Shown: in pieces, positions 16,724 to 21,728 of the stretch
Numbering within the stretch: position 1 is the first letter of the stretch
Layout of the letters: each line of letters begins with the position of its first letter
Assembly: GCA_016934575.1 (NCBI GenBank)
Contig: JAFGSN010000127.1
Span: 1-34,530 of the forward strand
DNA length: 34,530 nucleotides
Reading direction: 5' to 3'
Origin: Vicinamibacteria bacterium
GTDB lineage: Bacteria; Acidobacteriota; Vicinamibacteria; Fen-336
Notes under the pieces: generated by a model
Database searches by the model: none
The model's input: the letters and a program-made list of their open reading frames with translations, nothing else
What the model was told of the DNA's origin: nothing
Program-made: the position numbers and the translations under genes

Positions 16724-19537
16724 ATGAACGATCGAGATTCGTTTCATGATCGTGTTCGCCTGGAAGCCGCGCGTTATGGGAAAGATGCGTGGATCTTCGT
16801 GCGCGAGCTGCTCCAGAACGCGCGTGACGCCGACGCGACGCGCGTGGAGATCGAAGTCGAGGCGCGGGGCGACGGGCGAGCGCGAATCGGTTTTCTCGAC
16901 GACGGTTTCGGGATGAGCTTAGGTCATGCGCGCCGCTTTCTTTTCACGCTTTACGCGTCGAGCAAGCATGATGATCGCGACGCGGGCCGTTTCGGCGTCG
17001 GCTTCTGGTCGGTGTTGCGCTTCAAGCCGGAACGTATTGTCGTACGTTCATGGCCCGCGCACGACGAATCGTGGGAGATCGAGCTCGACGGAGCGTTGCG
17101 GAACGCGACGCGACGCGTTCCGCCGCGGAGAGAGACGAGCGGAACGGAGATACTTCTCGATCGCGCGATGGACTCGTCGGAGCTGGAGCGGCGCGTGTTT
17201 GACGCGGGCCGGGTGAACGCTCGTTTCTTGACGCAACGACGCAATCCGCGCCGTTCGCTCGCGGTGCGAGTCAACGGACGGACTCTCAACGAGCCCTTTG
17301 ATTTGCCGCCTCCGAGCCTCGGCTTCGAGGATCGGAATCGTCGCGGCGTGGTGTCGCTGGGGAGTTCACCCCGCGTCGAGCTGCACGCGCACGGCCTCCT
17401 CGTTCGCATGGCTTACGCTCTCGACGATTTGCTTTCGCGCGACGAAGGGAAAGAGATCGGACACGGTTGGCCGCAACAGGGCACGGACGGCATGGCGCCG
17501 CAGGCGATTCTAGACGATTCTCGGCTCGATCTGCTGCTGGCGCGGGGAGACGCACGGAACGAGCGCGAAGTGGCGCGTCTGGTGAAGCGCGCGCGGAGCT
17601 CCTTGCGGCGTCTCGTTCGCCGCCAGATTGATCGCGTTCGCCCGCGCTCTCTCAGGCAACGCGCCGGCGACGCCGTCGGAGCTCTGAGAAGCTGGAGCGA
17701 CCTCGTCCTGATGCTGTCTTCCGTGACGCTGGCTCTTGGCATCTTCGCGGGCGCCTTCCTGTGGTCGCGTTCCCAGGCGCCGCGCCGATCGGTAGAAACG
17801 ACGACCGCGGCCGGCTCGGCGCCGGAAGCCGAGCGCGCTCGCCAGACGACGCCTCATCGAGATCTCGGCGCGTTGTATGCGGGTCCCCGATCCGGCGTGT
17901 CGGAAACAGGCGATTTCGAGCTGGCGTTGCGTTATCGTCCCGCCGAATCGAGTCCGTTCTTCGCGGCGCTCGTCGTCTTTGATCCGGACTCGCCGCCCGG
18001 AGCGCTGCTTCACTCCGATCTCGCCGGAGATTATCGAGGCGCGGAGTGTCGGAGAGACTGCATGGAGATCGAGGTGATGGTCGCGGCTCGCCCGGGTCCC
18101 GTGCGTCTTCCCTGTCCCGTGGGGCATCGCATCGCCAATGAGAGCGTTCGGCTGGACGGACGTCAGGTTCCGCTTCGCGCCACGCGTCACGGAGAGCCCG
18201 TCTTGGTCGTTGGACCGGGAGTCGACAGGGATGCGCGGGTCGTTTATCGCGCGGGTCCGGCCTCCGACGATGGCCCGGTCGAGGAGATAGAGGTCACCCC
18301 TCGCGTTGCGCTCGAGGAAACAGCCGCAAGTCTCTCGACGATGCCCGTCGAAGAGCGGGTCGAGGCGGCCGCGCGGTGGGTGGGCGCGCGCGTACGTTAC
18401 TCGACGGAGGATGAACGCATTCGCCGTCAGGCTTCGTCCGTGCTCCGGGCGGACTCGTTTGTCGATCGCGCTCTTGCGATCGGCGCCGGCGATTGTGACG
18501 TGCAAAACGGAGTCCTGGTCGCATTGCTCCAGGACTCCGGAGTGACGGCGCGCCTGGTCATCGGATATGTGGGAAGGATGGGAAGCGCGCGCGGGCTGCA
18601 CGCCTGGGCCGAATATCGGATCGGGGCGTCGTGGGCGACGCTCGATTTGACGGCTCGGGGCGATGCGGAGAGCGCGGCGGCGATCATCGAGGCGGAGCCG
18701 CCTCTGGAGGCCGCGAGCCGCGAGGACACGCCGGTCGTATCGGCCTCGTCCGACCCAGGGGCGTGGCGGTTCCATATGCCGGCGTTTCTCGGCGTTCTTG
18801 CCTCCGGCATGGTCGCCGCCGTCATACTGCTCCGGTCACGAAGAAGGGAGCGGACCGTCAGGTATGATCCCCGCTTCGGCCTCGTTTCTCTGGTGCGCGG
18901 GGCTCTCGAGCGACCGGAGGCTTTTCGCGAGACGCCGGAAGTGTTCTGGCGCCCGCTCCTGCCGATTCTGCCGCGCGGAACGGTCTCTCTGGGCGAGGCA
19001 TGGTCCCTGGCGGAGCGCGGGCGGCTGTATTCCGCGCGTCGTCGTTCGGCGCTGCCGATGCGCGCCTCGCAAACGAAGAACCGCGTGCTCGACGCCGCGC
19101 ATGCCGAAAGTGCGCTTGCGGCATCGGCGCTCGGCGCGACGCCTCTCGATGAATGGGACGAACGGCTGTCGCGCGGCCGTTCCTCCCCTCTGCTTGGCGA
19201 CGCTTCGTCCGCGCTCTCCCGTCGAGGCGAGAGATGGCGCCTCACGGCCGTCTCGAATTCATCGCGCGACGCGCTTCCAGAAACGAGAGATGTTCGGGGC
19301 CTCACGCTCGAGACGCGCTCGTTCTGGAGCGGCGGATCGTTCGACCGGTACGTCGTCGTCGATGCGCGGGCGCCGTGGCTGATCGCCTGCGAGCGTCGAC
19401 ATGCGGCGCGTCCGGCCGAGGCGGTCTTCGATCTCATCGATCGGGTTCTCGATGCGCTCGGCTGTCCCGAACCGCGACGCCTGGAGCTTTTGGCGCCCCT
19501 GGCGCGGGCGGCGCTGCGGGAGAGGGCCGCGCGATGA
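16724..19537 (+). CDS. GHKL ATPase - membrane - transglutaminase-like fusion protein
   Basis: This 937-residue protein combines domains not usually found together. Residues 1-200 carry a GHKL ATP-binding site: N-box E28-L-L-Q-N32, G1 box DDGFGM (59-64) and G2 box GRFGVG (88-93), as in Hsp90, MutL and histidine kinases. No histidine-kinase phosphoacceptor domain is visible. A membrane helix follows at about 327-348. Residues 350-684 form an exterior region with a transglutaminase-like core, with apparent triad Cys591 (GDCD), His626 (HAWAEY) and Asp641 (LDLT). A second helix (about 685-705) leads to a cytoplasmic tail of 230 residues with no recognised domain. Expected topology puts the ATPase inside and the papain-like enzyme outside. 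The next gene begins inside its stop codon (ATGA). ATG 16724 is chosen because it starts at the domain boundary; GGGGAA lies upstream. Confidence 0.82.
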   Translation: MNDRDSFHDRVRLEAARYGKDAWIFVRELLQNARDADATRVEIEVEARGDGRARIGFLDDGFGMSLGHARRFLFTLYASSKHDDRDAGRFGVGFWSVLRFKPERIVVRSWPAHDESWEIELDGALRNATRRVPPRRETSGTEILLDRAMDSSELERRVFDAGRVNARFLTQRRNPRRSLAVRVNGRTLNEPFDLPPPSLGFEDRNRRGVVSLGSSPRVELHAHGLLVRMAYALDDLLSRDEGKEIGHGWPQQGTDGMAPQAILDDSRLDLLLARGDARNEREVARLVKRARSSLRRLVRRQIDRVRPRSLRQRAGDAVGALRSWSDLVLMLSSVTLALGIFAGAFLWSRSQAPRRSVETTTAAGSAPEAERARQTTPHRDLGALYAGPRSGVSETGDFELALRYRPAESSPFFAALVVFDPDSPPGALLHSDLAGDYRGAECRRDCMEIEVMVAARPGPVRLPCPVGHRIANESVRLDGRQVPLRATRHGEPVLVVGPGVDRDARVVYRAGPASDDGPVEEIEVTPRVALEETAASLSTMPVEERVEAAARWVGARVRYSTEDERIRRQASSVLRADSFVDRALAIGAGDCDVQNGVLVALLQDSGVTARLVIGYVGRMGSARGLHAWAEYRIGASWATLDLTARGDAESAAAIIEAEPPLEAASREDTPVVSASSDPGAWRFHMPAFLGVLASGMVAAVILLRSRRRERTVRYDPRFGLVSLVRGALERPEAFRETPEVFWRPLLPILPRGTVSLGEAWSLAERGRLYSARRRSALPMRASQTKNRVLDAAHAESALAASALGATPLDEWDERLSRGRSSPLLGDASSALSRRGERWRLTAVSNSSRDALPETRDVRGLTLETRSFWSGGSFDRYVVVDARAPWLIACERRHAARPAEAVFDLIDRVLDALGCPEPRRLELLAPLARAALRERAAR

Positions 19538-21111
19538 GCGCGAGCGTTCCCGGCAATCGATTCGCGGGCGAAGAACGCGCGTTCGCCTCGGATCTTCTGC
19601 GGGTCGATTACGAGAGCGAGCGTCTTCGTATCGGCCTGGGGCAGATCGGAGGCGCCTGGCAGATCCCGCTGGAGCTGGCGAGGCGCGCATCACGGGCCGG
19701 CGCCCGCACGATCTCGGTGAGATTCGAGGGGTCGCGCCTCATCGTCGTCGACGACGGTCATGGAATGAAACGAGAGACGGCGGCGGCTCTGGCGGAATTG
19801 CTCGATCCCCTCACGCAACCGGAGGCGCGTCATCGGGCGCTCGTCAGGCTCGAGAAAAAGCGCGAGCTGGGTTTCCTGGCCCTGTCCGCGGCCGGAGCGC
19901 GACGCGTGCGGATTCACGCTTCCGGCGGGGGAACGGCGGTCGATCTGGCGTGGGAGAAAGGCGGACGGCCGCGTATCATGGAAAACGCGGCCGTCGATGA
20001 AAGGACCGTGATCGAGATCGACTCGCCCTGGAATCGCTCCGCTGTCCGGGCCGCCCTCCATGAACGATGTCGATTTGTCCCGGCGACGGTCACGATCGAC
20101 GGATGCGCGGCGCCGAAAGGCTTCCGTGACGCGTTCGCGACGGCGCGCCTCCATTCGCCGCTCACCGGCGCTCTGGCGCTTGTTCCGCGTTCGCCCGCTC
20201 GTGTTTTACTGTTGCTCGACGGCGTCATCGCCGCGCGCACGACGCTGCCGGACGGTCCGTCCTGCGAGGCGGCCGTCGAGATGCGTCCCTGGATCGGCGG
20301 TCGTTGCGCTCCAGCCTCGCTACGGGAGGCGTTTCGCGAGCACGAGGAAACGATCCTGAAGCAGGCCACGGAGCTGATTCTTGGCCGGGCGCGCTCAATA
20401 CGGGCGGTCGCGGAGCCCGAGCGGCGTTTGATTCGGCGAGAGCTGATGACTCTGGCGCGGCGGCGCGTGGTCCCGCGAGAAGCGCTGACCGCGACGATCC
20501 TTCCCGCCGTAACGTCCGACGGAGAGCGCTGGCTCAGCTTGCTCGATCTCGGTCGCCAGGGAAGCCTGATCGAAGCGATTTTCCCCGACCAGGATCGAGA
20601 GCGGTTCGTCCTGTCCAGCGAACCGGCGCTGATTCTCGACGCCGACGAGCGCGCGCTGCTGGGCGAGTTGCTTGACGTCGGCTTCCGGACGCCTCCCGAG
20701 CGCCCGCGCGATACGCGGCGGCTCGTCCGGCGCGTTCGCTCGGCGCTGCACGCCGTTCATGACAGCGTGAGCGCTCTGATCGGCGCGCGCGTCCTGTCCG
20801 ATTCCGTGACGGCGCCTCAAGATCGTGAAGCTCTCCGCCGCCTGCGGGCCCAGCCGCCGGACTCGATCCGGGACGTCGAATTATGCGCGGGCCGCGGTCG
20901 CGCGCGACGCGTCGGCGATACGTTGCTCATCCCGCGCGGCAACGTCGTCTGGCGCGCCGGACGATCCGTCATCGTCCAGGATCCGGCCTGGCTGTATCCG
21001 CTATACGCGGCTCTTTGGGAGAGTCGCGCCGCGCCCGCCGGATCCGTACGGCGAAGGTGGCGTGAACGAGAAAGCGCGTGGCGCGCCGCCGATCGATCCG
21101 GCCAATCCTGA
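19534..21111 (+). CDS. Degenerate GHKL-like partner protein
   Basis: The 525-residue protein has a second GHKL-like N-terminus: helix IPLELARRASRAGA, strand TISVRF, then VVDDGHGM (71-78) matching the G1 box. The N-box Asn that binds Mg-ATP is replaced (E47-L-A-R-R51), and the glycine-rich lid is reduced to ELGFLAL, so ATP hydrolysis looks unlikely. The following part resembles a GHKL transducer region (RTVIEIDSPW, VTIDG). The rest, rich in Arg/Glu helices with several short strands, is unrecognised, and no membrane segment is visible. Its ATG overlaps the previous stop (ATGA), giving translational coupling and probably equal amounts of both proteins. A regulatory or heterodimer partner of the upstream ATPase is the simplest reading. 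Confidence 0.7.
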   Translation: MSASVPGNRFAGEERAFASDLLRVDYESERLRIGLGQIGGAWQIPLELARRASRAGARTISVRFEGSRLIVVDDGHGMKRETAAALAELLDPLTQPEARHRALVRLEKKRELGFLALSAAGARRVRIHASGGGTAVDLAWEKGGRPRIMENAAVDERTVIEIDSPWNRSAVRAALHERCRFVPATVTIDGCAAPKGFRDAFATARLHSPLTGALALVPRSPARVLLLLDGVIAARTTLPDGPSCEAAVEMRPWIGGRCAPASLREAFREHEETILKQATELILGRARSIRAVAEPERRLIRRELMTLARRRVVPREALTATILPAVTSDGERWLSLLDLGRQGSLIEAIFPDQDRERFVLSSEPALILDADERALLGELLDVGFRTPPERPRDTRRLVRRVRSALHAVHDSVSALIGARVLSDSVTAPQDREALRRLRAQPPDSIRDVELCAGRGRARRVGDTLLIPRGNVVWRAGRSVIVQDPAWLYPLYAALWESRAAPAGSVRRRWRERESAWRAADRSGQS

Positions 21112-21146
21112 TATGATGACAAGGCGTATCGCCGGTGAGCCGAGTC

Positions 21147-21728
21147 ATGAAAGTCCGACACTGCCCGCAATGTCATACGGATTATCGGTCCGAGATCGTT
21201 CACTGCGCCGATTGCGGCGCGTTGCTCGAGGACCGGGACGAAGAGGCCGACGTCTTCGGATCCTCATGCGCGGCGTCGGGAGACGATCACCACGACGAAC
21301 GCTCAACCGAGGGCTTTGAATCGCTGTGTCGCGCGGGCGACGTGCACGACCTCGTTCCGCTGGCCGACCGCCTCGCCTCGTGCGGCGTGAGTTTCTTCAT
21401 CGACGAGATGCGCCGGGGCGCACGTTGTGCCGGATACAGGATCTCCGTACGTTCCGAAGAGCGCCAGCGCGCTCTTGACGAGCTTGCGCCACTCTTGTCG
21501 CCGGGAACGATTCCGGTCGTTCTGGAGCAGTCTTTCGTCGAGGCGGAAGGCGAGGATCTCATGACCCAGTGCCCCGCTTGCGGCGAGCCGCTGCCGGAAT
21601 CCGCCTTCGCATGTCCCGAATGCGGCCTGCCGCTACGCGAGCCGGAGCCGCGATGCCCGGAATGCGCCGCGCCGATTCAGGGCGACGATCTTCGCTGCGG
21701 CAATTGCGGGAAGCTGTTCGACGCCTGA
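21147..21728 (+). CDS. Protein with three zinc ribbons and a DUF2007-like central domain
   Basis: The 193-residue protein has three Cys4 knuckle pairs: C6/C9 with C20/C23, C142/C145 with C156/C159, and C170/C173 with C184/C187. They should bind three zinc ions. Between the first and second lies an alpha/beta segment (about 57-128: ESLCRAGDVHDLVPLADRL, VSFFIDE, YRISVRSEERQRALDELAPLL). It resembles DUF2007-type putative signal-transducing domains that sit next to zinc ribbons in many bacterial proteins. ATG 21147 has GGTGAG upstream. It follows the GHKL pair by 35 bases on the same strand and may be in the same transcript; an adaptor role is inferred from that alone. Confidence 0.7.
   Translation: MKVRHCPQCHTDYRSEIVHCADCGALLEDRDEEADVFGSSCAASGDDHHDERSTEGFESLCRAGDVHDLVPLADRLASCGVSFFIDEMRRGARCAGYRISVRSEERQRALDELAPLLSPGTIPVVLEQSFVEAEGEDLMTQCPACGEPLPESAFACPECGLPLREPEPRCPECAAPIQGDDLRCGNCGKLFDA

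Follow-up and report, generated by a model that had tools for sequence, protein, structure and literature searches.

A predicted membrane-spanning Hsp90-like protein with a TgpA-like enzyme set into its middle domain and a putative pseudo-Hsp90 encoded beside it

Hsp90 as it is known is a soluble chaperone, and the exported transglutaminase TgpA often adjoins a MoxR-type ATPase. The protein that we describe here, from a Vicinamibacteria bacterium, combines an Hsp90-like body with a TgpA-like enzyme. With HtpG, Hsp90 and TRAP1 it shares the GHKL site of the N-domain, an arginine of the middle domain and, probably, the C-terminal region; it differs from them in that its middle domain is broken by some 385 residues carrying two transmembrane (TM) helices and an exported enzyme, in that it is missed by the Pfam HSP90 model (PF00183), and in that it is accompanied by a partner that looks ATPase-dead. 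In vitro the exported, periplasmic domain of TgpA acts as a transglutaminase; P. aeruginosa cannot do without the gene, for which the authors who reported this suggested a role in the cell wall (PMC3507681). Our protein resembles TgpA in having an exported transglutaminase flanked by TM helices, with aligned Cys, His and Asp (PMC3507681), whereas TgpA has an N-terminal multi-TM region (DUF3488), is without Hsp90-like halves and has for its ATPase an unrelated AAA+ protein on a chain of its own. Sacsin-type N-domains show a weak likeness to the N-terminal part, but sacsin itself, a giant protein of eukaryotes, is soluble and carries no exported enzyme. MORC and MutL proteins have the ATP site and the general fold in common with it, but they score below Hsp90, act on DNA and carry neither TM helices nor a transglutaminase. 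Membrane sensor histidine kinases also place an exported domain between two TM helices and a GHKL ATPase in the cytoplasm; in our protein, however, the GHKL domain is N-terminal and of Hsp90 type, and the body continues past the second helix. Our searches of the open-access literature turned up neither a description of a joined Hsp90-like and TM-transglutaminase architecture nor an experiment on any member of the family; the architecture is apparently undescribed, in keeping with the original prediction, made from the bases alone, which knew of no described family with such a domain order.

In the window (the whole stretch of DNA that was analysed, 34,530 nucleotides) the main gene forms a single open frame, and its start at the ATG at 16724 is backed by homologues that begin at the same residue; in its own genome (G000) it is single-copy and free of internal stops. 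The coordinates of its parts are collected in Table 1. The chain runs from a GHKL ATPase through a TM helix, a transglutaminase-like domain and a second TM helix to a tail, and Pfam recognises two of these parts above the gathering cut-off, residues 26-100 as HATPase_c_3 (E 9e-12) and residues 539-641 as Transglut_core (E 1e-11). Both domains are present in all 38 full-length members that were sampled from about 48 independent loci. The original prediction had drawn a linear chain of four parts, and the parts themselves stand, but the layout was incomplete: the GHKL region and the tail are two halves of one Hsp90-like body, and what had been called an unknown tail of 230 residues aligns with Hsp90-like proteins over their C-terminal half.

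Table 1. Predicted features of the main gene and its partner, with positions in the window
Feature	Residues	Position	Strand	Basis
Main gene, Hsp90-like protein with inserted TM-transglutaminase-TM segment	937 in all	16724..19537	+	Pfam, profiles, AlphaFold model, family alignment
GHKL/Hsp90 N-domain (E28, N32, D59, G61, K81, GRFGVG 88-93, GT 140-141)	1-165	16724..17218	+	Pfam, profiles, conservation
Hsp90 middle domain, first part (invariant P259 and R274)	165-320	17216..17683	+	hhalign against HtpG; conservation
TM helix 1, inside to outside	327-348	17702..17767	+	hydrophobicity, positive-inside rule across family
Exterior domain: beta region and TgpA-like transglutaminase core	398-645	17915..18658	+	Pfam, PDB profile match, conservation
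Triad codons	C591; H626; D641	18494-18496; 18599-18601; 18644-18646	+	family alignment
TM helix 2, outside to inside, then Arg-rich stretch	685-706	18776..18841	+	hydrophobicity, positive-inside rule
Tail: rest of Hsp90 middle domain and C-terminal-domain-like region	707-937	18842..19534	+	fold alignments; profiles against paralogues and partner
Partner gene, putative pseudo-Hsp90, its start overlapping the stop of the main gene (ATGA)	525 in all	19534..21111	+	profiles, synteny

The GHKL site had been called intact on the strength of E28/N32, DDGFGM and GRFGVG, and the Pfam match and the conservation of these motifs, whose residues are invariant or nearly so, agree with this. In the family alignment E28, Q31, N32, R34, D35, D59 and G61 are conserved in 47 of 47 sequences, as are G140 and T141, and G63, K81, G88, G91 and G93 in 48 of 48. 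The domain starts near residue 20, and its best PDB match among GHKL proteins by profile is HtpG (2ior, E 1e-8). Several named models score below their cut-offs against it: NCBIfam sacsin-N reaches 45.9 bits where 50 are required (with a weak Pfam SACS match in 37 of 38 members), the HSP90-family model PRK14083 reaches 38.9 bits, and the MutL models match at the N-box region only, far below cut-off. PRK14083, taken as one sequence, aligns with the family over the N and middle parts only, and AlphaFold models the ATP-lid region (78-91) with low confidence. Since the N-box, DxGxGM, GxFGVG, GT and R274 are all invariant or nearly so, the sequence leads us to expect an active ATPase, and the near-invariance of the ATP-site residues together with that of C591, H626 and D641 argues that both activities have been retained.

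To follow the Hsp90 body across the insert we used a core, defined as the family profile minus residues 321-705 (the membrane-transglutaminase segment). This core meets HtpG in one alignment that extends from the N-domain to the C-terminal region (hhalign, E 7.8e-18), and it matches a set of soluble, insert-less paralogues, its closest relatives, over their full length (E 6.4e-51). R274 (codon 17543-17545), conserved in 47 of 47 sequences, aligns without gaps to the LNVSRE arginine of HtpG (hhalign), and the HtpG middle-domain loop aligned to it reads GIVDSADLPLNVSRE; in Hsp90 the arginine of that loop (R380 in yeast) touches the gamma-phosphate (PMC12280139). The tail alone matches the C-terminal half of the insert-less paralogues (E 1e-10), and these in turn match HtpG by profile (E 1.7e-22). 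Set directly against HtpG the tail gives a weak score (21.6, with a shuffle maximum of 19.1), and a direct search of the tail profile against solved structures found nothing, so the tail assignment rests on the bridge of paralogues and on the structural model. Identity with DUF4129, as in TgpA, was considered for the tail and rejected, its Pfam match being absent in 38 members. The chain of profiles from core and tail through paralogues to HtpG argues that the TM-transglutaminase-TM segment is an insertion between two parts of the Hsp90 middle domain, and by these profiles and the model a TgpA-like exported enzyme is predicted to sit inside that domain. The Hsp90 N and middle features are present in the protein, and a C-terminal domain is probable.

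The AlphaFold model was built from 38 members and has a mean pLDDT of 82.5, where a four-sequence input reached only 43. Foldseek places Hsp90 at the top of its PDB matches (E 3.5e-13), and the fold matches Hsp90, TRAP1 and HtpG at Z 20-21 in alignments that cross the insert and resume in the tail, where model residues 808-814 reach Hsp90 residues ~526-568 and several chains reach 932. The original guess had been of something in the style of Hsp90 or MORC; the Hsp90 half of it holds (Z 21), and a MORC-type assignment ranks lower, MORC2 matching at Z 18. When the model is compared with viral structures, the top fold matches are mostly phage rIIA proteins and topoisomerases, and the phage rIIA proteins thus look Hsp90-like over several hundred residues. 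PF00183 has no match in the main protein or its own genome, and we therefore file the protein as Hsp90-like and not as a canonical Hsp90. By the same model this genome lacks canonical HtpG, as do 29 of the 30 genomes searched. The soluble paralogues (L101-L112), found in Nannocystis, Plesiocystis and a Polyangia MAG, are ~550-650 residues long and occur several to a genome; their ATPase motifs are intact, and they differ from the main protein in having neither TM helices nor a transglutaminase. They match the HtpG profile end to end, yet far below the NCBIfam HtpG cut-offs, and are apparently an unnamed clade of Hsp90.

On the membrane side, the coordinates and the candidate triad of the original prediction are right. 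Both helices score at least 1.6 for hydrophobicity in 39 of 42 members, and the topology signals agree: positive-inside charges place the transglutaminase outside in 40 of 42. C591, H626 and D641 are conserved in every one of the 42 and align to the Cys, His and Asp of 6g49, which bears out the original picture of an exterior transglutaminase-like domain with this triad. The best PDB match of the exterior domain is the protein-glutamine gamma-glutamyltransferase of 6g49 and 6g4h (E 1.2e-7 for the domain alone, 9e-11 for the whole profile), which we take to be TgpA of P. aeruginosa. DUF3488 is matched in none of 38 members (Pfam) and there are only two TM helices; lacking this region, the main protein is not itself a TgpA. 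An invariant triad aligned to that of a solved enzyme leads us to expect that the exterior enzyme is active. A cysteine pair, C442/C446, opens the exterior region in 30 members and fits an oxidising compartment. The linkers to the two helices (351-372 and 647-685) are modelled with low confidence by AlphaFold and, if flexible, would weaken a rigid coupling. Elsewhere in the same genome there is one further transglutaminase-core protein (C243:22815-23108, in a 618-residue frame).

At every locus whose contig extends far enough, one and the same partner family lies directly 3' of the main gene, and the loci without it are those in which the contig breaks off inside the main gene or shortly past it. 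This apparently obligate pairing had escaped the original prediction. By profile the partner matches the N and middle parts of the main protein (E 1.6e-11) and its tail (E 2.9e-4) in the same order; against the tail alone it gives E 2.5e-5, above all 60 shuffles, and against the soluble Hsp90-like paralogues E 5e-19. The partner has lost the N-box Asn and most of the glycine motifs, and it should therefore not hydrolyse ATP. With a shared N-terminal fold, a related C-terminal region and these ATPase residues gone, the sequence identifies the partner as a putative pseudo-Hsp90. Distances within the main and partner families correlate (Spearman 0.74), although such a correlation also arises from shared descent and is not proof of contact.

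Beyond this pair, gene neighbours are not conserved, and our search for conserved operon partners upstream found lineage-specific genes only. A protein with an IgGFc-binding domain, matched to PF17517 in both of the members that were scanned, lies just upstream at several Polyangia/Nannocystaceae loci (L023, L025, L034, L047 and L060), and an SLT lytic transglycosylase lies directly upstream at two Myxococcota loci (L045:6731-7969 and L054:2457-3347), where it hints at a possible link to peptidoglycan. Two related loci (L032 and L051) have a response regulator just upstream, and another two (L050:3472-5007 and L067:1655-3205) have, immediately upstream, a membrane protein that lacks a Pfam match and resembles an M48 peptidase without HExxH. 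In the window, 23 bases past the partner, stands a gene for a zinc-ribbon protein (21135-21728, + strand) with a faint likeness to 'zinc ribbon-containing (seleno)protein DG'; as a candidate third component it was rejected, being found at no other locus.

The family was found at 48 loci in the ~85,000 species genomes that we searched. Its hosts are Myxococcota (Nannocystis, Enhygromyxa, Plesiocystis and many MAGs), Acidobacteriota and two MAGs titled proteobacterium, and it is patchy within the two phyla, occurring in 10 of 247 Acidobacteriota genomes and in 1 of 78 evenly drawn genomes of Myxococcota. Three full-length copies from genomes of the same taxonomic family are 39-41% identical to the main protein. 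In a tree the sequences sort largely, though not perfectly, by phylum, which leaves room for old descent with losses, for some transfer and for misbinned MAG contigs alike.

We think, with a little more confidence than doubt, that a clamp of Hsp90 type in the cytoplasm, with the pseudo-Hsp90 as its probable partner, draws on ATP to gate an enzyme of the periplasm that acts on amide bonds of the envelope. In this scheme the N-domain would bind and hydrolyse ATP in the cytoplasm, while a two-helix membrane hairpin interrupting the middle domain would present the TgpA-like transglutaminase to the periplasm (or the cell exterior) before the chain re-enters the cytoplasm and completes the middle and C-terminal parts. 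The partner, a soluble and presumably ATPase-dead copy of Hsp90, would most likely form a heterodimer or hetero-oligomer with the main protein, giving an asymmetric clamp that closes on ATP binding and opens on hydrolysis. Because the middle domain anchors both helices, motion of the clamp would shift them relative to each other, and this shift may switch or position the Cys-His-Asp enzyme outside, which could then form, cleave or swap amide bonds in peptidoglycan peptides or in proteins of the envelope. Sequence and model show the domains, the point of insertion, the topology signals, the conserved active sites, the constant gene pair and the partner's loss of ATPase residues; from this anatomy we infer the heterodimer, the ATP-driven coupling, the inside-out direction of signalling and the class of substrate. 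The bolder claim, that this is the first known transmembrane Hsp90 machine, in which ATP turnover inside controls an enzyme outside through an asymmetric pair with an ATPase-dead paralogue, is one that we hold tentatively, at just under an even chance.

That a sequencing or assembly error merged neighbouring genes, a danger of which the original prediction had warned, has nothing in its favour beyond the odd architecture; the identical fused order recurs at about 48 independent loci, in isolate genomes and MAGs, which refutes the idea and leaves it a practically negligible chance. The main rival fits the same anatomy as the gated enzyme and runs the other way: the exported domain, as a sensor and not as the output, would bind or process a ligand of the envelope, the hairpin would set the ATPase state of the clamp, and clients, the partner included, would respond. 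Sensor kinases are built just so, with an exported domain between two TM helices and a cytoplasmic GHKL ATPase, and the response regulator at two loci points the same way, although that neighbour is restricted to one lineage and the regular partner is a pseudo-Hsp90 and not a response regulator. A triad invariant in 42 of 42 members goes beyond what a pure sensor needs. As had been predicted, there is moreover no phosphoacceptor helix, a HisKA-type Pfam family (the DHp element) being matched in 0 of 38 members, and the protein accordingly falls outside the histidine kinases; on balance we consider this sensing role unlikely.

We give somewhat less credit again to a membrane-tethered chaperone, whose Hsp90 half would help clients from the cytoplasm or the membrane to fold, or deliver them, near the envelope, while the exported enzyme worked independently and the fusion merely co-localised the two. 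Low-confidence, flexible-looking outside linkers flank both TM helices, and with HtpG missing from this genome and nearly all its relatives there would be room for an Hsp90-like role; but the enzyme is inserted within the middle domain and not at an end, a costly arrangement for simple tethering, and both domains occur in every one of the 38 members scanned. Quite improbable, in our view, is a conflict or defence system in which the GHKL part senses invaders, in the style of sacsin-type proteins or paraMORC, with the transglutaminase-like thiol enzyme as effector. The family is patchily distributed in lineages rich in conflict and defence systems, some of which contain transglutaminase-like peptidases (PMC7159879), and the PADLOC model TmtA matches the GHKL region (E 1e-9). 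That match, however, covers only the ATPase core common to the superfamily (residues 12-102), the TmtA models being more than 1000 long, and the enzyme is exported; none of the neighbours that we examined was identified as a defence gene.

The cytoplasmic clamp that gates an exterior enzyme is thus the reading that we prefer. The conserved pair of an active and an inactive copy would make an obligate asymmetric Hsp90 directly testable, and cultured hosts exist in Nannocystis and Plesiocystis. If true, it would mean that an Hsp90 clamp can work across a membrane, with a conformational cycle that is measurable through an enzymatic read-out, and that the energy of ATP can reach a compartment free of ATP by a route unlike those of transporters, TonB-type systems or AAA+ partners. 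It would also point to a way in which periplasmic transglutaminases of the TgpA type, among them the essential one of P. aeruginosa, can be regulated.
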